Of a stretch of 64,000 bases of DNA, positions 4,231-53,976 are shown in pieces. Origin of the DNA: Hydrogenimonas urashimensis (GTDB lineage Bacteria; Campylobacterota; Campylobacteria; Campylobacterales; Hydrogenimonadaceae); NCBI RefSeq assembly GCF_016593255.1, contig NZ_AP023212.1:1104001-1168000 (forward strand). Direction: 5' to 3'. The notes under the pieces were generated by a model. That model had not been told where the DNA came from and did not search any database. It saw only the letters and a list, made by a program, of their open reading frames with translations. Position 1 is the first letter of the stretch. Every line of letters begins with the position of its first letter. The position numbers were made by a program, and so were the translations under genes.

Positions 4231-4982
4231 AACATTCTCAACGTGTTGGCATTTTCGACAGCGGCGCCGGTGGCCTGACCGTCGTCAAGAGCATTATGGA
4301 GCACCGGTTTTTCGATGAAATCATCTACTACGGCGACACGGCGCGCGTCCCCTACGGCACCAAAGATGCCGCCACCATCACCCGTTACGCCCTCGAAGCA
4401 CTGGAATTTTTCAAAAATTTCGACATCGACCTGCTTATCACCGCCTGCAATTCCGTCAGCGCCCACGCCCTGCCGGAGATGCGCGCCAATGCCGAAATTC
4501 CCATCTACGGCGTCATCGACCCTGGTGTCAAAGCCCTGCAAAACAGTGGCCTCGACCCATCTTCGCGCATTCTGATTCTGGGTACCCGCGCCACGATCCA
4601 AAGCGGCCGCTATCAAAAAGGCATCGAGGCGATCGGGTACAAAAACATCGAATCGATCGCCCCTTCTCTTTTCGTTCCCGTGGTCGAAGAGGGTGTTTTC
4701 GAAGGACCCGTGCTTCAAAGCGTCATGACCCACTATTTCAAAGCCATCGAAACACCCGATGCTGTGATCCTTGGATGCACCCACTTTCCCCTCATCGCCG
4801 AAGCCATTCGCGACTATTTCCCCAACGCCCCTCTGCTCATTCACTCGGGGGAAGCGATCGCGGAGCATCTTGAAGAACAAGGATACCTGTCCAAGCGAGT
4901 GGAAAAGACCAAACTCAAAATTTTCGCATCGGAAAATCCCGACAATCTCAAGGCGATCGCCGCAAAATGGCTGCAGCAATGA
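4227..4982 (+). CDS. murI: Glutamate racemase
   Basis: MurI interconverts L- and D-glutamate for peptidoglycan synthesis in the cytoplasm. At 251 residues it has the usual length. The motif FDSGAGGLTV (residues 10-19) carries the conserved aspartate. Two catalytic cysteines are visible in TACNSVSA (near residue 75) and LGCTHFPL (near residue 185). The start overlaps the stop of the ligase gene (ATGA at 4227-4230) and its own stop overlaps the start of waaF in the same way. Placement of a peptidoglycan gene within an LPS operon implies translational coupling rather than a shared pathway. Confidence 0.96.
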   Translation: MKHSQRVGIFDSGAGGLTVVKSIMEHRFFDEIIYYGDTARVPYGTKDAATITRYALEALEFFKNFDIDLLITACNSVSAHALPEMRANAEIPIYGVIDPGVKALQNSGLDPSSRILILGTRATIQSGRYQKGIEAIGYKNIESIAPSLFVPVVEEGVFEGPVLQSVMTHYFKAIETPDAVILGCTHFPLIAEAIRDYFPNAPLLIHSGEAIAEHLEEQGYLSKRVEKTKLKIFASENPDNLKAIAAKWLQQ

Positions 4983-5977
4983 AAATTCTCGTCGAACTGC
5001 CCACCTGGCTGGGCGATGCCGTCATGACCACTCCGGCGCTTGAAAACCTTTTCGCCGCCTATCCCGATGCCCATATCACCCTCGTCGGCTCTTATGTGGC
5101 CACCGAAGCGCTTAAAGCCCACCCCCGTATCACCCAAACCGTCCTCGACACAACCAAATCGGAAGGATTCCGCCCCCTCAACGTCTATCGCCTTGCCAAA
5201 ACCCTCGGTTCCCACGACATCGCCCTGACTTTCCGCAGCCACCTCTACTCTAAACTGCTCTTGAAGCTGACCGGCTCAATAAAGATATTCCAATACAAAA
5301 AACCTTCCCACTTCTCACTCCCCACTTCTCACTCGGCTTCTGTCGCCTCCGTCCACCAGGTCCAACGCTACCAGGCTTTCATCGACACCGTCACTGGCCG
5401 ACACGACACACCCGGCATTCTGCTCCTCCATTGGCCTAAAAAAAGCTACGAGCGTCCGACACTGGGTATCAACCCCGGCGCGACCTACGGCAGCGCCAAG
5501 CGGTGGTACCCCGAAAAGTTCGCCGAAGTCGCCGCGACCCTCTCCGACCTCTTCGACATCGTCATCTTCGGAGGACCTGCAGAAACCGATATCGCCAGAG
5601 ACATTGAAACGATTCTCATACAAAAAGGGGTGGAGAACATTCTGAATCTCGCGGGAAAAACCACGATACCCGAACTCTGCAGCGCCATCGGCGGACTGGA
5701 TTTGTTCATCACCGGCGACAGCGGCCCCATGCACATCGCCGCCGCCTACCAGGTCCCCACCGTCGCCCTTTTCGGACCGACGAAGCACGAAGAGACCTGC
5801 CAATGGATGAACCCCCCAAGCACCATTGTCCGCCACGAAATGGCCTGCGCCCCCTGCATGAAACGCACCTGTCCTCTCAAACATCACGCCTGCATGAAAG
5901 AGATAACGCCCCAGGAGGTCGTGAACGCAGTCCATGCCATGATGAATAGAGTGTTCAAACAGGAGAAGAGAGAATAA
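4979..5977 (+). CDS. waaF: ADP-heptose:LPS heptosyltransferase II
   Basis: This 332-residue GT9-family enzyme adds the second L-glycero-D-manno-heptose of the LPS inner core. Family signatures are ILVELPTWLGDAVM at the N-terminus, NPGATYGSAKRWYP around residue 165, and TGDSGPMHIAAAY and ALFGPTKHEET in the ADP-heptose-binding half. A cysteine-rich C-terminus (CAPCMKRTCPL) is normal for the family. An upstream ATG at 4967 is possible, but ATG 4979 overlaps the murI stop as ATGA. Bases 5304-5338 within the gene form a heptamer repeat array encoding a SHFSLPT-like stretch, apparently a tolerated in-frame insertion in a loop. The heptose precursor genes lie just downstream on the other strand. Confidence 0.93.
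   Translation: MKILVELPTWLGDAVMTTPALENLFAAYPDAHITLVGSYVATEALKAHPRITQTVLDTTKSEGFRPLNVYRLAKTLGSHDIALTFRSHLYSKLLLKLTGSIKIFQYKKPSHFSLPTSHSASVASVHQVQRYQAFIDTVTGRHDTPGILLLHWPKKSYERPTLGINPGATYGSAKRWYPEKFAEVAATLSDLFDIVIFGGPAETDIARDIETILIQKGVENILNLAGKTTIPELCSAIGGLDLFITGDSGPMHIAAAYQVPTVALFGPTKHEETCQWMNPPSTIVRHEMACAPCMKRTCPLKHHACMKEITPQEVVNAVHAMMNRVFKQEKRE
5304..5338 (+). repeat. Heptamer array inside waaF
   Basis: Five consecutive 7-base units run without gaps. The units are variants of CTTCTCA (also CTTCCCA and CTCCCCA), followed by a degenerate CTCGGCT. The reverse complement reads as GTGAGAAG/GTGGGGAG-type units. The array is translated in the waaF frame, giving a protein segment with seven-residue periodicity (SHFSLPT then SHSASVA). 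Unit differences are mostly T/C transitions. Confidence 0.75.
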
Positions 5978-6790: not shown

Positions 6791-8227
6791 TCACGATTTA
6801 GAGGCCGAGTCCCTCATTCTCTCTATGGTTTTCGTCGTGCTTTTCCCTTCGACGAAATCGACCAGCCGCACCTCTTTGGCGATATCGCTTCCTACAACCT
6901 CCTTACCCTCGTAATCACCTCCTTTGACCAGCACATCGGGCCGGACGACCTTGATGAGTTCGTAGGGGGTATCTTCATCAAAAATCGTTACGAAATCGAC
7001 CGAATCGAGAGCCGCCAGCAGGTAAGCACGGTCGAATTCCGGATTGACGGGACGCTCGGGACCCTTGAGGCGGCGTACCGACGCATCGGAATTGACGCCG
7101 ACGATCAGCACATCACCGAAACTTTTGGCTTTCTCGAGGTATTTGACGTGCCCCAGATGCAAAATGTCGAAACAGCCGTTGGTGAAGACAATGCGTTTGC
7201 CCCGGTTTTTCAAGCGCTCGACACTCTTTGCCAGCGCCTCCTGCGACTTGATGCGGTGCTCCGTCGTCGATTCGTGAAGCGCCGTTTCGTAGGCGATGAT
7301 CTCATCCCATGTCGCCGTAGCGCTGCCCAGCTTGCCCACGACCACCGCCGCGGCGGCGTTGGCGATGCGCGCCGCTTCATCGATGTCCCCGCCGCAGGCC
7401 AGCACGAACCCCAGAGTCGAAAGCACCGTATCGCCCGCTCCGGTCACATCGTAGACCTCCTGGGCCACCGTGGGAATCGTGCGCATCGTCTCGTCGAAAA
7501 TCGCCATCCCCTCTTCGGAGAGGGTAATCATCGCCATGTTGAGGTTCAGGTCGTTTTTCAGCCTAAAACCCGCTTCCCGCAAGCTCGCTTCGTCGACGAT
7601 GTCGATCCCCGTCGCTTCGCTCGCCTCTTTTTTGTTGGGCGTAACAAGCGTCGCGCCTGCATACTTGGAGTAATCCCTCCCCTTGGGGTCCACCAGCACC
7701 TTCACGCCGGCGGCCCGCGCCATTTCGATGACATGGCGCGTCAGACGTTCGCTGAGCACCCCTTTGCCGTAATCGGAAAGCAAAATGATGTCGGTCAGAA
7801 AAAGTTGGCGCTGTACTGAAGCGAGAATTTTATCCTCCGTCTCTTTGGCGATCTCCTGCCGCGTCTCGCTGTCGAACCGCACCACCTGCTGATGGGAGGC
7901 GATCACACGGCTCTTTCGGGTCGTCTTGCGCTGCGGTTCGGTCACAAGGGCATCGGTCTTGACCCCCAGCGATTTGAGCATCAGTCCCAACCGCCTGCCG
8001 TTTTCATCTTTTCCGATCGCCGAAGCGACGCTCACATCGGCTCCCAGGGCGATCAAGTTGTTCACCACGTTTCCCGCGCCGCCAAGCACTTCGCTCTCTT
8101 CCTGCACGTCGATCACTGGCACCGGTGCCTCCGGCGAAATCCGTTCCGTTTTTCCCCAGAGATAATGGTCGATCATCAGGTCGCCGACGACGAGAATGGC
8201 GGGTTTTAGGGTTTGGTATTTACGCAT
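6791..8227 (-). CDS. hldE: Bifunctional heptose-7-phosphate kinase / heptose-1-phosphate adenylyltransferase
   Basis: This 478-residue two-domain enzyme has the length of E. coli HldE. Residues 1-320 are a ribokinase-fold kinase with GGAGNVVNNLIALGADV and the catalytic DVTGAGDT motif. The C-terminal part is a nucleotidyltransferase with TNGCFDILHLGHVKYL, where HLGH is the HxGH signature. It phosphorylates heptose 7-phosphate at C1 and later, after GmhB, forms ADP-heptose. Two in-frame ATGs exist; 8227 is preferred over 8233 because AAAGGA sits at the right distance. The start overlaps the end of the four-helix-bundle gene by 8 bases, so the inserted gene is now translationally joined to hldE. 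Confidence 0.95.
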   Translation of the reverse strand: MRKYQTLKPAILVVGDLMIDHYLWGKTERISPEAPVPVIDVQEESEVLGGAGNVVNNLIALGADVSVASAIGKDENGRRLGLMLKSLGVKTDALVTEPQRKTTRKSRVIASHQQVVRFDSETRQEIAKETEDKILASVQRQLFLTDIILLSDYGKGVLSERLTRHVIEMARAAGVKVLVDPKGRDYSKYAGATLVTPNKKEASEATGIDIVDEASLREAGFRLKNDLNLNMAMITLSEEGMAIFDETMRTIPTVAQEVYDVTGAGDTVLSTLGFVLACGGDIDEAARIANAAAAVVVGKLGSATATWDEIIAYETALHESTTEHRIKSQEALAKSVERLKNRGKRIVFTNGCFDILHLGHVKYLEKAKSFGDVLIVGVNSDASVRRLKGPERPVNPEFDRAYLLAALDSVDFVTIFDEDTPYELIKVVRPDVLVKGGDYEGKEVVGSDIAKEVRLVDFVEGKSTTKTIERMRDSASKS

Positions 8228-8621
8228 GAACATCCTTTTCGGATGGGTCGTTAGTCGTTGGTCGTTGGTCGTTGGTTTTTTTCTCCAAAGACCGTCTCAA
8301 CCCATTGATCATACGCCCTATGCTTTCAAGTTCCCGAATCCCGCCTTTTCCTTTTTCCAACTCTATATAATTGATTTTCATGCCAATATAGATTTGGGTT
8401 TTCAGTTCCGCTGCAGAACCCAGTGCAATATCTAAAAAACGCCAACTCTCTTTGTCCGAATTCCTCTCCAACCCTTCAGCGATATTACTGGGAATGGAAA
8501 GCCCGGAACGTGTAATCTGATCTTTGAATCCGAAATTTTTCAGATCCCGAAATACAACATAATTTTCGGCACTCAAAGCATCTGCCTTCTTCCACACATC
8601 CAAGGACTCACATTTCATCAT
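8220..8621 (-). CDS. Four-helix-bundle protein (23S rRNA intervening-sequence S23 / Avd-like)
   Basis: The 133-residue product matches the TIGR02436/S23 pattern: LDVWKKADALS near the start, QITRSGLSIPSNIAEGLERNS in the middle and FLDIALGSAAELKTQI after it. Proteins of this family are encoded in intervening sequences of some 23S rRNA genes and are related to Avd, the accessory protein of diversity-generating retroelements. Molecular function is unknown. The last about 17 residues (TNDQRPT then TNDPSEK) are encoded by a heptamer array and do not look like part of the fold. The gene is unrelated to LPS yet sits between hldD and hldE, flanked by inverted heptamer arrays at 8247-8274 and 8664-8691. 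That arrangement suggests a mobile insertion. Confidence 0.88.
   Translation of the reverse strand: MMKCESLDVWKKADALSAENYVVFRDLKNFGFKDQITRSGLSIPSNIAEGLERNSDKESWRFLDIALGSAAELKTQIYIGMKINYIELEKGKGGIRELESIGRMINGLRRSLEKKTNDQRPTTNDPSEKDVHA
8247..8274 (+). repeat. Heptamer array (GTCGTTG family), left copy flanking the four-helix-bundle gene
   Basis: Four uninterrupted units: one GTCGTTA followed by three GTCGTTG. The array lies at the 3' end of the four-helix-bundle gene and encodes its repetitive tail. It is the inverted counterpart of the array at 8664-8691, so the two could pair in single-stranded nucleic acid with the gene in the loop. Confidence 0.88.
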
Positions 8622-8663: not shown

Positions 8664-8691
8664 ACGACCAACGACCAACGATTAACGACCA
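8664..8691 (-). repeat. Heptamer array (GTCGTTG family, inverted), right copy flanking the four-helix-bundle gene
   Basis: Four units on the + strand, three ACGACCA and one ACGATTA. These are reverse complements of the GTCGTTG-type units at 8247-8274. The array covers the last codons of hldD, whose terminal SGR and stop codon are made of repeat units. It lies about 43 bases upstream of the four-helix-bundle start. Confidence 0.88.
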
Positions 8692-25265: not shown

Positions 25266-25297
25266 AAATCGAGAATGGATAATTGAGAATTGGAAAT
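25263..25297 (+). repeat. Heptamer array (TGAGAAT family) after galE
   Basis: Five gapless units: TGAAAAT, CGAGAAT, GGATAAT, TGAGAAT and TGGAAAT. The first three bases are the galE stop codon and the last unit includes the putative TTG start of the next gene. No inverted partner array is visible within the following 400 bases. Confidence 0.8.
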
Positions 25298-25685
25298 AGG
25301 ATACTCGGAACTTTTCGTTCTGGTTCTGCTCGGCTGTGAAATATTCGAAAGCTGGTGGCAGCACGATGGTACTCTTGGAGGGGTACTGGTGAAGATTCGG
25401 TACCATTTCCACACCCATCTTTTTTTGCTGTTTGCGATGCATCCATCATTTTGGTTCCTTCTTTTTCTTTTTGTCGCCCGCGGTTTTCACGGGACGCTGC
25501 TTGGCCTGATACTGGTCATGAAAGCTTCCGATATCGCCTTCAAACTCTGGATCGTCAAAAAGATCGACGAAGATGCCCTTTCACCCGATTTCCGTGCAAT
25601 GCTCGCCATGCCGCTTTCACCATGGATGCCATGGATAAATGTGGTTATCTACCCCGCTTTGCTGGCATTGTCCCTGCAAACCTGA
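25290..25685 (+). CDS. Small membrane protein of unknown function
   Basis: The 131-residue frame encodes three or four hydrophobic segments: SELFVLVLLGCEIFE, HLFLLFAMHPSFWFLLFLFVA, GTLLGLILVMKASDI and PWINVVIYPALLALSL. A conserved-looking H-x-H-x-H pattern (YHFHTH, near residue 40) precedes the second helix. The only plausible start is TTG 25290, which lies in the heptamer array and lacks a good ribosome-binding site. The real start may therefore have been altered by the repeat. I do not recognise the family. Confidence 0.6.
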   Translation: MEIGYSELFVLVLLGCEIFESWWQHDGTLGGVLVKIRYHFHTHLFLLFAMHPSFWFLLFLFVARGFHGTLLGLILVMKASDIAFKLWIVKKIDEDALSPDFRAMLAMPLSPWMPWINVVIYPALLALSLQT

Positions 25686-25754: not shown

Positions 25755-25857
25755 AGTCCCATCAAAACAATCTGACATTTTACTGTTTACTGTGCCACGG
25801 CACTTCTACAATCCTGCCAGAATTCTGCAAAATTACAATTCACAAAGAGAAGGAATC

Positions 25858-27168
25858 ATGAGCGAAACCTCCAACCGTACCAACAACAAGCGAACCCATA
25901 TCCCGGTGGAAGGATACAAGATCGAAGATCTTCGTCAAAAGAGCCTGGAAGAGCTGATCGCCATCGCCAAAGAGCTGGGTGTCGAAAACCCCAACGAGCT
26001 CAAGCGCCAGGATCTGATGTTCGAGATCCTCAAATCGCAGGTGAGCAAAGGCGGCTACATCCTCTTTACCGGTATTTTGGAGATCACGAACGAGGGGTAC
26101 GGTTTCCTTCGCGCCATGGACGCCAACTTCTCCAACTCCAGCAACGACGCCTATGTCTCGAGCACCCAGATACGCAAATTTGCTCTCCGAAACGGTGACG
26201 TGGTCACGGGCCAGGTGCGCCCGCCAAAAGAGCAGGAGCGCTATTATGCGTTGCTCAAAATCGAGGCGATCAACTACATGCCCGTCGCCGAGAGCAAGAA
26301 TCGGCCGCTTTTTGACAACCTCACGCCGCTCTATCCCCAGGAGAAACTCAAACTCGAATACAACCCGACCAAACTGACCGGCCGTGTTCTGGATCTTTTC
26401 ACACCCATCGGCAAAGGTCAGCGCGGTCTTATCGTTGCCCCTCCCCGCAGCGGCAAGACAGAACTGATGAAAGAGCTTGCCCACGGCATTACGCACAATC
26501 ATCCCGAAGTGGAGCTCATCGTCCTGCTGGTGGACGAGCGCCCCGAAGAGGTTACCGACATGGAGCGAAGCGTACGGGGCGAAGTCTACAGCTCCACTTT
26601 CGACCTGCCGGCACAAAATCATGTGCGTGTAGCGGAACTGGTCATCGAAAAAGCCAAACGTCGCGTCGAAATGGGCAAAGACGTTGTGATTCTTCTCGAT
26701 TCCATCACCCGCCTCGCTCGCGCCTACAACACGGTCACCCCAAGCTCCGGCAAAGTCCTCTCGGGCGGTGTGGACGCCAACGCCCTGCACAAACCCAAGC
26801 GTTTCTTCGGCGCCGCGCGGAACATCGAAAATGGCGGCAGCCTGACCATCATCGCCACCGCCCTTGTCGATACCGGCAGCCGCATGGACGAGGTCATTTT
26901 CGAAGAGTTCAAGGGAACGGGCAACAGTGAAATCGTCCTCAGCCGCGCCATCGCCGACCGCCGCATCTATCCGGCCATCGACATCATCAAGTCGGGCACG
27001 CGAAAAGAGGAGCTTTTGACCGACCCGAACACGCTTCCTAAAATATGGGCGCTGCGTAATGCGATGCACCAGATGGACGAAGTGGAAGCCCTCAAATTTC
27101 TCTACTCCAAAATGCTCAAGACCAAAAACAACGAGGAGTTTCTGAGCATCATGAATGAAGGGGCGTGA
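25858..27168 (+). CDS. rho: Transcription termination factor Rho
   Basis: Rho is the hexameric RNA-dependent ATPase that ends transcription. The 436-residue protein has an N-terminal helical domain ([20 protein letters not shown]), the cold-shock-like RNA-binding fold with GYGFLR and an ATPase domain. In that domain the P-loop is [13 protein letters not shown], Walker B is [16 protein letters not shown] and the R-loop region is GTRKEELL. The frame is open further upstream, but ATG 25858 has AGAAGGAA at the right distance. A possible four-helix-bundle remnant bounded by heptamer arrays follows the stop codon. Confidence 0.97.
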
Positions 27169-27170
27169 TT

Positions 27171-27205
27171 TTGAAATTGACAATTGATAATGCAGGATTG
27201 ATAAT
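27171..27205 (+). repeat. Heptamer array (TGATAAT family), left copy in the rho-dnaX interval
   Basis: Five gapless units: TTGAAAT, TGACAAT, TGATAAT, GCAGGAT and TGATAAT. It starts two bases after the rho stop. It is inverted relative to the array at 27313-27340. Confidence 0.8.
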
Positions 27206-27207
27206 TG

Positions 27208-27312
27208 TGTGATGATCGAGAATATCCCATGGCAGGCGAATCATTTCGGTTTGAAGAACTTATCAAGCTTCTTACTTCTATAATCGAAACTGCAAAGCAG
27301 ACCGCTCGATGA
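27208..27312 (+). pseudogene. Possible C-terminal remnant of a four-helix-bundle gene
   Basis: Between the two inverted arrays a frame runs to TGA 27310-27312 and reads DDREYPMAGESF, then RFEELIKLLTSIIETAKQTAR. The end resembles the last helix of one subgroup of four-helix-bundle (S23/Avd-like) proteins, which finish with ELIKIFxxSIKTAK-type sequences. An ATG at 27229 would give 27 codons but no good ribosome-binding site precedes it. The stop codon directly abuts the right-hand array, as at the intact gene at 8220-8621. The family call is from memory and tentative. Confidence 0.45.
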
Positions 27313-27340
27313 ATTGTTTATTGTCAATCATCAATTTTGG
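27313..27340 (-). repeat. Heptamer array (inverted TGATAAT family), right copy in the rho-dnaX interval
   Basis: Four gapless units on the + strand: ATTGTTT, ATTGTCA, ATCATCA and ATTTTGG. The second is the exact reverse complement of the TGACAAT unit in the left array. The last unit contributes to the GGAGA ribosome-binding site of dnaX at 27339-27343. Confidence 0.75.
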
Positions 27341-27350
27341 AGAATGAATA

Positions 27351-29078
27351 GTGTCACAAGCGCTCGCACTCAAATACCGCCCCCGCCGCTTCGAAGACCT
27401 GATCGGACAGGATTCCATCTCCCAGACGCTGGCGATGGCACTGGATCAGAACAGGCTGGGACACGCCTATCTCTTTTCCGGGCTACGCGGCAGTGGAAAA
27501 ACCTCGACGGCACGCATCTTTTCCAAAGCGCTCCTGTGCGAAAACGGCCCGACCTCCAAGCCATGCGACACCTGCGAACAGTGCCGCATGGCCAACGAGG
27601 GACGGCACATCGACATCATCGAGATGGATGCCGCCTCCAGCCGGAAAATCGACGATATCCGCGACCTCATCGAACATACCAAATACAAGCCCTCCGTGGG
27701 CCGCTACAAAGTCTTCATCATCGACGAAGTGCATATGCTCACGAAGGAGGCGTTCAACGCCCTTCTCAAGACCCTGGAAGAGCCGCCTGAATTCGTCAAA
27801 TTCATCCTGGCCACGACCGACCCGCTCAAGCTTCCCGCCACGATTCTCAGCCGCACCCAGCATTTTCGCTTCAAGAAAATCGCCAAACCGCTGGTCATCA
27901 AGCATCTGGAGCATATACTCAATTCTGAGAAGATCGCTTTCGAACCCGAAGCTCTCGACATTCTGGCACGCAGCGGCAGCGGCTCTTTGCGCGATACGCT
28001 GACGCTTCTGGACCAGGCCATCGTCTACTCCAAAAGCCACGTGGATGTCACGACGGTGACCCAGATGCTCGGCATCATCGATCCCGAATTCCTGGAGAAA
28101 CTTTTCGATGCCGTTTTGCAAAAAGAGGAAGAGAGGCTGCGGGAGTATCTCAAGGATCTCGAAAACTACGAAGCGGAGATGGTGATCGACGAAATGAGCC
28201 TCTTTCTGAAAGAGAAACTCCTGCAGAACGATCCGAAATTCTCCCCGATGCTGCTTGAACGCTTCTACCACATTCTGGCCGAAGCGAAACCCCTGCTGGC
28301 ACTGGGCACCGACGGCGATTTCGTCCTCTCCCTCACTCTCTTCAAACTCGTCGAAGCCATGAACATCAAGCAGATCGACGAGATGCTCGAGATGCTCGAA
28401 GAGGAGCTTGCCGGAATGAAACCGGCGACAGGAGGCATAGAACAGGTTGCGGTGAACAGGGAAACGAAATCGGCCCGAAGCCCAAAACCCTCAGCCAAAA
28501 ACCAGCCATCCGATCAGCACCCTTCCCTCACCAATCGCCCATCGGGTCTACAGCCCGACAACGCTCTCCGCTTCAAAAAACTGGTCGAAAAGCTCTACGA
28601 CCGCAACGCGGAACTGGGCAAAGCGTTCGAGGAGAGCATCGAGTTCGTCGACTTCAAAGAGGGAGTACTCTCGTGGGCAAGCCATGCGGAGGGGAAAAAC
28701 AGGGAGCTTCTTAAAACCCATTTCGGCATCGTGCGCCATATCGTGCAGGACGTTTTCGGTGTCGGCACAAAAATATCGCTGGTCAAATCGGAGAATCCGG
28801 CGCCCCCAAAGCGTGAAGCTCCTGCGCAGGAGCTTGAAACGGACACGGATACCTCCGGGCCGGAAGAGACCCAGAGCGAAGACGCCAACGGCGCTACCCA
28901 TACCGGTTCGATGATCGAAGATATCGACTGCAACAGTGCCGGATGCGTTACGGGAAACTGCAGCGAAGAGGAGCCGAGCAGGGAGTATGACGCCAAGGAT
29001 ATTCTCAACGACCCGATGGTCAAGCGGGCACAGGAGCTTTTCGGCGCCAAAAAGATCGTTATCCGTTCCAAAGTGTAG
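27351..29078 (+). CDS. dnaX: DNA polymerase III subunit gamma/tau
   Basis: This 575-residue clamp-loader ATPase begins ALALKYRPRRFEDLIGQD. It has the P-loop GLRGSGKTSTARIF, a four-cysteine zinc site (CENGPTSKPCDTCEQC), Walker B IIDEVHML and the SRC-like ILSRTQHFRF. Domain III ends near residue 355. A low-complexity linker then contains a degenerate heptamer-like stretch (about 28505-28555, coding for SDQHPSLTNRPSG), followed by a tau-like C-terminal part. The GTG start at 27351 has GGAGA at 27339-27343. Confidence 0.95.
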   Translation: MSQALALKYRPRRFEDLIGQDSISQTLAMALDQNRLGHAYLFSGLRGSGKTSTARIFSKALLCENGPTSKPCDTCEQCRMANEGRHIDIIEMDAASSRKIDDIRDLIEHTKYKPSVGRYKVFIIDEVHMLTKEAFNALLKTLEEPPEFVKFILATTDPLKLPATILSRTQHFRFKKIAKPLVIKHLEHILNSEKIAFEPEALDILARSGSGSLRDTLTLLDQAIVYSKSHVDVTTVTQMLGIIDPEFLEKLFDAVLQKEEERLREYLKDLENYEAEMVIDEMSLFLKEKLLQNDPKFSPMLLERFYHILAEAKPLLALGTDGDFVLSLTLFKLVEAMNIKQIDEMLEMLEEELAGMKPATGGIEQVAVNRETKSARSPKPSAKNQPSDQHPSLTNRPSGLQPDNALRFKKLVEKLYDRNAELGKAFEESIEFVDFKEGVLSWASHAEGKNRELLKTHFGIVRHIVQDVFGVGTKISLVKSENPAPPKREAPAQELETDTDTSGPEETQSEDANGATHTGSMIEDIDCNSAGCVTGNCSEEEPSREYDAKDILNDPMVKRAQELFGAKKIVIRSKV

Positions 29079-32033: not shown

Positions 32034-32061
32034 GGCGATTGGTGATGAGTGATTAGTGATT
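32034..32061 (+). repeat. Heptamer array (AGTGATT family)
   Basis: Four gapless units: GGCGATT, GGTGATG, AGTGATT and AGTGATT. It lies in the 75-base space between sixA and the phosphoesterase gene, followed after 13 bases by an array of another family. Confidence 0.72.
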
Positions 32062-32074
32062 TGATATTCATAAA

Positions 32075-32109
32075 TTTTTAGTTTTCAACTTTTAGTTTTT
32101 AGTTTTTTA
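32075..32109 (+). repeat. Heptamer array (TTTTTAG family) at the end of sixA
   Basis: Five gapless units: TTTTTAG, TTTTCAA, CTTTTAG, TTTTTAG and TTTTTTA. On the minus strand it encodes the last residues of SixA (KKLKTKS) and the TGA stop. Two different heptamer families are therefore juxtaposed at one locus. Confidence 0.78.
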
Positions 32110-41023: not shown

Positions 41024-41589
41024 AGTCTACCTCCTCGCAGCGTAATGCGCGAAACAAACGCATCGAGTGCTTTGCCCGACCCCTCTTTGATCGCCTGAAA
41101 ACGGAGGGCATCCGAAATGATCGCACGGGGCTGGATAGGGAAATCGTAAAATCCCGAAACTGTCTCGGTGCCGTGTTTTTTTGAAGAAGTATAACGGATA
41201 TTCAATGAAACTTTCGCACGATAGTAGATGGCGTAGCCGTTGACATCGTACTGAATCGGTGTGAAGGAGACACTGTTGAATTTGACGTGCAGCCTCGTCG
41301 TCGCACTCTCTTTGTCGGCGACAGCTGCACCGAAGCGGCTGACGATCGCTTCGTTCAAAGCGTCCTTGACAAGAACGGCGTTTTCAGGATCTCTGAGATA
41401 GACCTCGATTTCCGTATAGATCTTGTCGGTGAATACCTTTTGCGTGAAAGCCGTCGTCGGTTTGTAGCCGCAACCGATGAGAGTGAACAGTGAATAGTGG
41501 ATGGTGAACAGTGAGAGAAAAAAGATACGCAGTGATGGCCGTTTCCACTTTCTGGCGACCGACGACCAACGACCAACGACTTGTTTCAT
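41020..41589 (-). CDS. lptE: LPS-assembly lipoprotein LptE-like
   Basis: The 189-residue lipoprotein sits between leuS and the GGDEF gene, the position of lptE in Helicobacter. LIGCGYKP is a good lipobox with the acceptor cysteine near residue 39. The mature part has QKVFTDKIYTEIEVYLRDPENAVL, FNSVSFTPIQYDVNGYAIYYRAKVSL and DFPIQPRAI, a pattern of beta strands as in LptE, the plug of the LptD LPS translocon. The N-terminus is remarkable: VVGRWSSV and SLFTIHYSLFTL are both encoded by heptamer arrays, so the signal peptide is repeat-derived. ATG 41589 overlaps the leuS stop (TAATG). Confidence 0.8.
   Translation of the reverse strand: MKQVVGRWSSVARKWKRPSLRIFFLSLFTIHYSLFTLIGCGYKPTTAFTQKVFTDKIYTEIEVYLRDPENAVLVKDALNEAIVSRFGAAVADKESATTRLHVKFNSVSFTPIQYDVNGYAIYYRAKVSLNIRYTSSKKHGTETVSGFYDFPIQPRAIISDALRFQAIKEGSGKALDAFVSRITLRGGRL
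41482..41516 (+). repeat. Heptamer array (AGTGAAT family) forming the LptE signal-peptide core
   Basis: Five gapless units: AGTGAAC, AGTGAAT, AGTGGAT, GGTGAAC and AGTGAGA. On the minus strand it is translated as SLFTIHY then SLFTL, a seven-residue periodic hydrophobic segment directly before the LIGC lipobox. Confidence 0.85.
41556..41576 (-). repeat. Heptamer array (GTCGTTG family) at the start of lptE
   Basis: Three gapless units on the + strand: CGACCGA, CGACCAA and CGACCAA. These belong to the family also seen at 8247, 8664 and 53901. On the minus strand it encodes the VVGRWSSV segment just after the lptE start. Confidence 0.8.
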
Positions 41590-44043: not shown

Positions 44044-44078
44044 TTTTAGTGAATGGTGAAAAGTGAAGAGTGAAAAGT
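44044..44078 (+). repeat. Heptamer array (GAAAAGT family), left copy between leuS and secF
   Basis: Units are TTTTAGT, GAATGGT, GAAAAGT, GAAGAGT and GAAAAGT, gapless. It is the inverted counterpart of 44140-44167. The complementarity extends into AGTTGTG (44079-44085) and CACAACT (44136-44142). Confidence 0.82.
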
Positions 44079-44139
44079 AGTTGTGAACCGCTATCGCGGA
44101 CCATTTTTTTAATAAAAGGGAGCGAAGCGACCCTCCACA

Positions 44140-44167
44140 ACTTTTCACTTTTAGTTTTTAACTTTTA
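44140..44167 (-). repeat. Heptamer array (inverted GAAAAGT family), right copy between leuS and secF
   Basis: Units on the + strand are ACTTTTC, ACTTTTA, GTTTTTA and ACTTTTA, gapless. The 50-60 bases between this and the left copy contain two small stems (CCGC/GCGG at 44088-44099 and GGG/CCC at 44118-44133) but no open frame of note. Confidence 0.82.
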
Positions 44168-44177
44168 ACTCAAAAAA

Positions 44178-53897: not shown

Positions 53898-53900
53898 ACG

Positions 53901-53928
53901 GTCGTTGGTCGTTAGTCGTCGGTCGTTG
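53901..53928 (+). repeat. Heptamer array (GTCGTTG family) between the helicase gene and truB
   Basis: Four gapless units: GTCGTTG, GTCGTTA, GTCGTCG and GTCGTTG. It is intergenic, starting four bases after the helicase stop. Differences between units are transitions only. No inverted partner is present before truB at 53977. Confidence 0.87.
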
Positions 53929-53976
53929 GAATAGGCTTTGTTGCCCTTTTGAGATCTCTTTTTTGGAAACTAATCG

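Follow-up and report, generated by a model that had tools for sequence, protein, structure and literature searches.

The window, by which we mean the whole 64,000-nucleotide stretch of the Hydrogenimonas urashimensis contig analysed here, carries rho (25792–27168; Pfam Rho_N, Rho_RNA_bind and ATP-synt_ab) and, downstream of it on the same forward strand, dnaX (27351–29078; also assigned with Pfam). The rho stop codon occupies 27166–27168, and the 182 bases between it and dnaX hold two degenerate, mutually inverted heptamer arrays with a 27-residue frame between them. The left array (about 27171–27207, forward strand) begins straight after the rho stop and reads TTGAAA-TTGACAA-TTGATAA-TGCAGGA-TTGATAA-TTG, which fits the left-array consensus N-A-R-T-K-R-A; the right array (about 27313–27341, forward strand) is inverted with respect to it, its reverse complement being AATTGATGATTGACAATAAACAATTC. 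Both are worn, with lag-7 self-matches of 0.61 and 0.57. When aligned in inverted orientation, they agree at 21 of 29 positions (score 13), and a score as high is reached by 0.15% of shuffles (p = 0.0015) and by one of 1709 pairs of the same geometry across the window; on both counts, the inverted copies that the initial annotation had placed between rho and dnaX are confirmed. A search of the segment against its own genome returned only its own locus and chance matches and, therefore, it does not represent a DNA repeat family.

The same junction was compared among those congeners whose contigs show the rho–dnaX region. Five Hydrogenimonas species have an intact TIGR02436/PF05635 gene between inverted heptamer arrays: in G003, G004, G016 and G017 the order is rho, array, four-helix-bundle gene, array, murI (with a worn left array in G017). 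G009 has the same order up to the second array, but dnaX comes next, murI being missing from the junction there as it is in the window. The rho-site genes match TIGR02436 (E = 1e-31), PF05635 (E = 7.5e-28) and PDB entry 2RLD (3e-42), and the G003 orthologue satisfies the membership cut-offs of both families (109 bits against 24 for TIGR02436, and 97 bits against 33.8 for PF05635). The stop codons of these orthologues lie just ahead of the right array, as at 27312 in the window, and the array units vary by species (GGAGAAT, ATGATGG, GATGGAA and ATAATGG, with TTGACAA in the window). A sixth congener, G013, has only a right-array scar, at the start of murI, and the four-helix-bundle gene is absent from the region in G002, G007, G008, G011 and G012: some of these have murI alone, some have a small gene pair of toxin–antitoxin appearance, and G007 has nothing. 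At five loci (L012, L013, L020, L023 and L025), we observed a small pair like a CopG-like antitoxin and a RelE-like toxin at the rho/murI–dnaX junction, which would be a second kind of insert there, albeit on resemblance only.

The murI gene is placed between rho and dnaX in most congeners; that of the window genome is found elsewhere (window positions 4248–4976; 75% identity to the MurI of G003). At L012, L014, L019 and L022, the start codon of murI falls within the right array, such that the first 10–15 residues of MurI (MKKSSILHPPSSIS...), which vary between species, are a translation of the array; intact MurI proteins of relatives begin MKKSSILHPPSSISK... and MKQSSIFHLPSSISK.... Direct reading of the window reveals a 12-codon open reading frame on the forward strand (MNCLLSIINFGE and a stop; 27309–27347), which runs through the right array from the ATG (27309–27311) that opens it and that overlaps the TGA of the 27-residue frame. 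Judged by its sequence, it is probably a relic of the MurI N-terminal extension known from the congeners.

The 27-residue frame itself (MAGESFRFEELIKLLTSIIETAKQTAR and a stop) spans 27229–27312 on the forward strand. A locus-specific profile of the C-terminal 30 residues of the five rho-site proteins was searched against the six-frame translation of the window. It gave one significant match, in the frame at 27205 (E = 5.5e-6, against 0.33 for the runner-up), and the top match of the G003 gene in the window by blastn lies at 27253–27281 (86%, E = 4e-4). The frame consists of MAGESFRF followed by EELIKLLTSIIETAKQTAR: after its opening it continues EELIKLLTSIIETAK, and the corresponding stretches of the G003 protein are LERSFRF, close to the start, and EELIKLLTSITITSK, at the end. 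MAFFT aligns SFRF with the N-terminus and EELIKLLTSI with the C-terminus of the G003 orthologue. The simplest reading is apparently that of an intact four-helix-bundle (TIGR02436) gene that would have lost its middle in frame; the N-terminal match comprises only four residues and is weak by itself. The end of the frame had been taken for the last helix of a four-helix-bundle protein, and its homology to the C-terminus of the congener orthologues bears this out. The translated segment found no match in the profile libraries, S23/TIGR02436 included, even with E-value limits of 1 or 10, because 27 residues are too short; the argument is therefore one of synteny and of the locus-specific profile. 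Since it is detected by that profile alone, we describe it as a remnant of a TIGR02436/PF05635 gene and not as a member of the family (PDB codes: 2RLD and 2GSC; five chains each): the intact rho-site orthologues score as members, whereas the window keeps only an N-terminal scrap fused to the last helix.

An intact element is also present in the window, at the hldD–hldE junction. Its gene lies on the reverse strand (8220–8621; PF05635, 103 bits; TIGR02436, 5e-29), as do its left array (8664–8691; units of GGTCGTT type when read in the direction of the gene) and its right array (8246–8276). The latter is read through as the protein's C-terminus (KKTNDQRPTTND), and it does not come after the stop. 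The initial annotation had the stop abutting the right array alike at both loci; this holds at 27312, but not at 8220–8621. The window presents a decay series, from the intact gene (8220) through the 27-codon gene (27229) to gene-less array pairs (secF–leuS and leuS–lptE) and single arrays. The arrays of the gene-less pairs are matched in some cases and unmatched in others; their descent from gene-bearing pairs is an inference, and no congener has a four-helix-bundle gene beside leuS.

At the leuS–lptE junction (41482–41580) there are two heptamer arrays that do not match, and the LptE signal peptide, FFLSLFTIHYSLFTLIGC, is encoded by the right-hand one; right arrays have, then, become coding sequence both here and in the MurI N-termini of the congeners, which have other arrays, or none, between leuS and lptE. 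At the secF–leuS junction (44048–44170), a gene-less mini-element comprises a heptamer array, a GC hairpin and an inverted array, and congeners have versions with other units. Abutting arrays of GATTAGT and TTTTTAG types occur between histidine phosphatase and YmdB-like genes (32037–32107), and lone left-type arrays, with no clear right partner, occur right after the stops of a galE-like gene and uvrD (25266–25301 and 53900–53929, respectively); the uvrD–truB junction of G009 also has arrays, with different units. A further array, CCCACTTCTCACTC, lies in frame (5304–5334) within a glycosyltransferase-like open reading frame (4967–5977). Only three further strong period-7 arrays were found in 340 kb of sampled stretches of the same genome outside the window.

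PF05635 is present in 17 of 18 genus genomes and in 84 of 299 genomes of the order. Across 77 loci of the order, the inverted match between left and right flanks is well above that of mismatched pairs: it exceeds the 95th percentile of the null in 55, and the 99th percentile of shuffles in 53, compared with seven for the direct orientation. A scan of species genomes for the rho-type protein gave 80 loci, chiefly from Clostridia, and otherwise from Bacteroidota, Verrucomicrobia, candidate phyla and one cyanobacterium; outside Campylobacterota, the best self-period is 7 in 59 of 64 left flanks and 62 of 64 right flanks. With a threshold for strong arrays that 0.7% of shuffled flanks pass, both arrays are present at 91 of 157 family loci, the other 66 being without one or both, and in 62 of the 91 the partner from the same locus ranks in the top 5% of all arrays. 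Outside the phylum, the immediate surroundings of the gene have 5.21 period-7 arrays per kb, compared with 0.085 in the remainder of those loci, a 61-fold difference, and the corresponding values in the order are 2.68 and 0.204 (13-fold); other periods give no comparable excess, the exception being a small one of period 8 in the order. The consensus unit upstream of the gene, read on the sense strand, is N-A-R-T-K-R-A, and G exceeds C in 85 of the 91 left arrays. The arrays, therefore, go with the four-helix-bundle family generally and across several phyla, and the proposal that a decayed element at this locus would support such an association is sustained well beyond rho–dnaX. At orthologous sites, similarity is 0.71 within a locus and 0.64–0.66 between species, which is no more than suggestive of concerted evolution of the paired arrays, there being only 15 usable pairs; an earlier comparison that included the gene ends was discarded, as conserved flanks confounded the result.

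By simple longest-ORF calls, 102 loci have the gene on the strand of both neighbours and four have it opposed to both, against a background of 143 same-strand pairs among 229 adjacent gene pairs. Some GC-rich loci are miscalled (L001, L045 and L121 are known to be co-directional), and so the ratio of 102:4 understates the bias. The occupied junctions include hldD–hldE, cysD–cysN, emrA–emrB, gspF–gspG and rho–murI; other than hldD, hldE, rho and dnaX, the gene names at junctions are our own reading of the sequences. In the protein tree, the genus members of one site mostly cluster, and other families of the order have unrelated lineages at the same junction. A single origin per junction is rejected by the AU test for rho (p = 2e-4), emrA–emrB (p = 5e-5) and hldD–hldE (p = 4e-82), with groups defined by flanking genes and a tree that rests on few columns and leaves many forks unresolved. 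Additionally, direct reading of L104 finds a different subfamily, with different units, at the rho–murI junction. On this evidence, these junctions were occupied by unrelated lineages independently of one another. Nothing points to recent movement: the sampled loci contain no near-identical copies at different sites, the best cross-site pair having 80% nucleotide identity. Neither a clean empty site nor a target-site duplication could be delimited, the congener flanks being too diverged to define the junction, and no transposase was found inside the element.

A link from these operon loci to the intervening sequences (IVSs) of rRNA is provided by G096, where one copy of the gene lies inside the 23S rRNA (Rfam LSU; L096, 1521–5086) and is flanked by inverted ATTACAG-type arrays. 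The S23 gene of this genome occurs at three positions. Heptamers in an rRNA IVS are already known: the IVS of Coxiella burnetii, in helix 45, has tandem GACAGAT heptamers ahead of its S23p ORF, and its 28-bp terminal stem is cut by RNase III (PMC4990558). The elements resemble 23S rRNA IVSs in having a single S23/PF05635 ORF that runs in the same direction as the host RNA, in the decay of that ORF, in tandem heptamers upstream of it and in complementary ends that form a stem. Indeed, the intact G003 element folds with its arrays as the closing stem (z = −3.6), thereby meeting the IVS criterion of complementary termini, whereas these termini are worn in the window copy, the fold of which is no better than those of shuffles (z = 0.19). 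The window copy differs in that it lies in a protein operon (rho–murI–dnaX) and not inside a 23S rRNA gene; moreover, by comparison with the Coxiella IVS, its heptamer units are unlike, most of its gene is missing, and cutting by RNase III has not been demonstrated.

We consider it likely, with a probability of roughly 0.85, that the locus is a decayed IVS-type insertion element that resides in a protein-coding operon instead of rRNA. An intact element would consist of one TIGR02436/PF05635 gene framed by two inverted heptamer arrays of the above consensus, and would sit between co-transcribed genes in the host sense, often with its stop overlapping the next start, a position in which the host transcript would carry and express it. 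The same operon junctions would have been entered more than once, with copies then mostly inherited vertically; later, the gene may lose its middle (in frame at the window locus), the arrays may drift, and the right array may be absorbed into the N-terminus of the next gene. What has been demonstrated is the homology at this site, the frame of arrays, the sense orientation, the repeated occupation of junctions, the decay and the one case in 23S rRNA. That the element is or was mobile is inferred, the chemistry of transposition not being known, and it is likewise by inference that we regard the arrays as the ends of the element, matched when they were laid down, and those of intact copies as able to pair in the transcript.

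This pairing raises the possibility that the arrays are kept inverted for the sake of an RNA stem around the gene, which would be cut by RNase III as in the rRNA IVS, and which would process or insulate the host mRNA. Such an explanation accords with the closing stem of the intact G003 element, the cleavage of the Coxiella stem, the nearly invariable sense orientation, and the greater strength of duplexes between a locus's own left and right arrays than of swapped ones (medians of −54 and −36 kcal/mol, respectively). Transition mismatches that still pair as G–U in the sense RNA are, however, not favoured (144 against 162, p = 0.84), the remnant folds no better than shuffles, and several gene-less pairs in the window have arrays that are dissimilar to one another; we regard the explanation as unlikely, though not to be set aside, and selection for RNA pairing is not claimed. 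On the negative G–U result, the matching of the arrays is better explained by a step at the DNA level, in which the two would arise jointly or one would be corrected to the other, although this inference comes from a single test.

An RNA-borne route, in which an Avd-related protein would help a reverse transcriptase in trans to copy the excised RNA into transcribed sites, is improbable. Avd of diversity-generating retroelements is a related four-helix-bundle protein, its homology to PF05635 has been noted (PMC10053308), and both sense orientation and insertion into transcripts would suit such a route; the profile similarity of the G003 orthologue to Avd is, however, weak (E = 1.5e-4) and, at 22 bits against a curated cut-off of 80, does not qualify. 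Moreover, there is no reverse transcriptase (RVT_1) match in the window genome, and matches occur in two of 18 genus genomes, whereas the family is present in 17 of 18.

Still less credible is that a Y1 transposase of the IS200/IS605 or RAYT kind mobilizes the arrays as REP- or MITE-like repeats, and that the four-helix-bundle gene merely travels along with them. Small, inverted, gene-less array pairs at operon junctions, some with a hairpin, recall such repeats, and Y1 transposases are present in eight of 18 genus genomes; but the window genome has no Y1_Tnp match (the only transposase family searched genome-wide), the units vary between copies, unlike a REP consensus, and the arrays are concentrated by one protein family across phyla. 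The family showed no link in its occurrence with either reverse transcriptase or Y1 transposase. Lastly, the short gap upstream of an essential gene might suggest that the segment is a regulatory leader or attenuator of dnaX in which a short ORF occurs by chance, and conservation as a leader was what the initial annotation had named as refuting its reading. This can be dismissed, as the junction varies among congeners, being filled by an intact gene, marked by an array scar, occupied by other inserts or empty, and the remnant matches its profile at the syntenic place.

Intergenic TAACTGA heptamer arrays have been described in Beggiatoaceae, Cyanobacteria and Bacteroidetes (MacGregor 2015, PMC4679880). 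These share the period of 7 and an intergenic position upstream of genes, and their unit is one base off N-A-R-T-K-R-A; they differ in being direct repeats, for which a translational role was proposed, and no S23 or four-helix protein is mentioned. We found no paper that joins the IVS heptamers with the TAACTGA arrays, nor one that reports S23-family loci of protein operons to be bounded on either side by heptamer arrays. As a conjecture to which we give somewhat less than even odds, S23/TIGR02436 genes and inverted heptamer arrays may constitute one widespread class of mobile element that has no transposase and inserts in the sense orientation at operon junctions and in rRNA: IVSs with an S23 ORF would be its best-known instances and orphan intergenic arrays its relics, and the arrays would be matched by the DNA-level step, possibly guided by the protein.

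Three things reported separately would thereby unite as one element, namely, rRNA IVSs with their unexplained S23 protein, the likewise unexplained intergenic heptamer arrays, and the ‘four helix bundle protein’, a very common hypothetical protein in bacterial genomes. Inverted period-7 arrays offer a simple mark for annotating such elements and their scars, and the origin and movement of IVSs, a question that is decades old, becomes testable in the protein operons of bacteria that are harmless and in culture.
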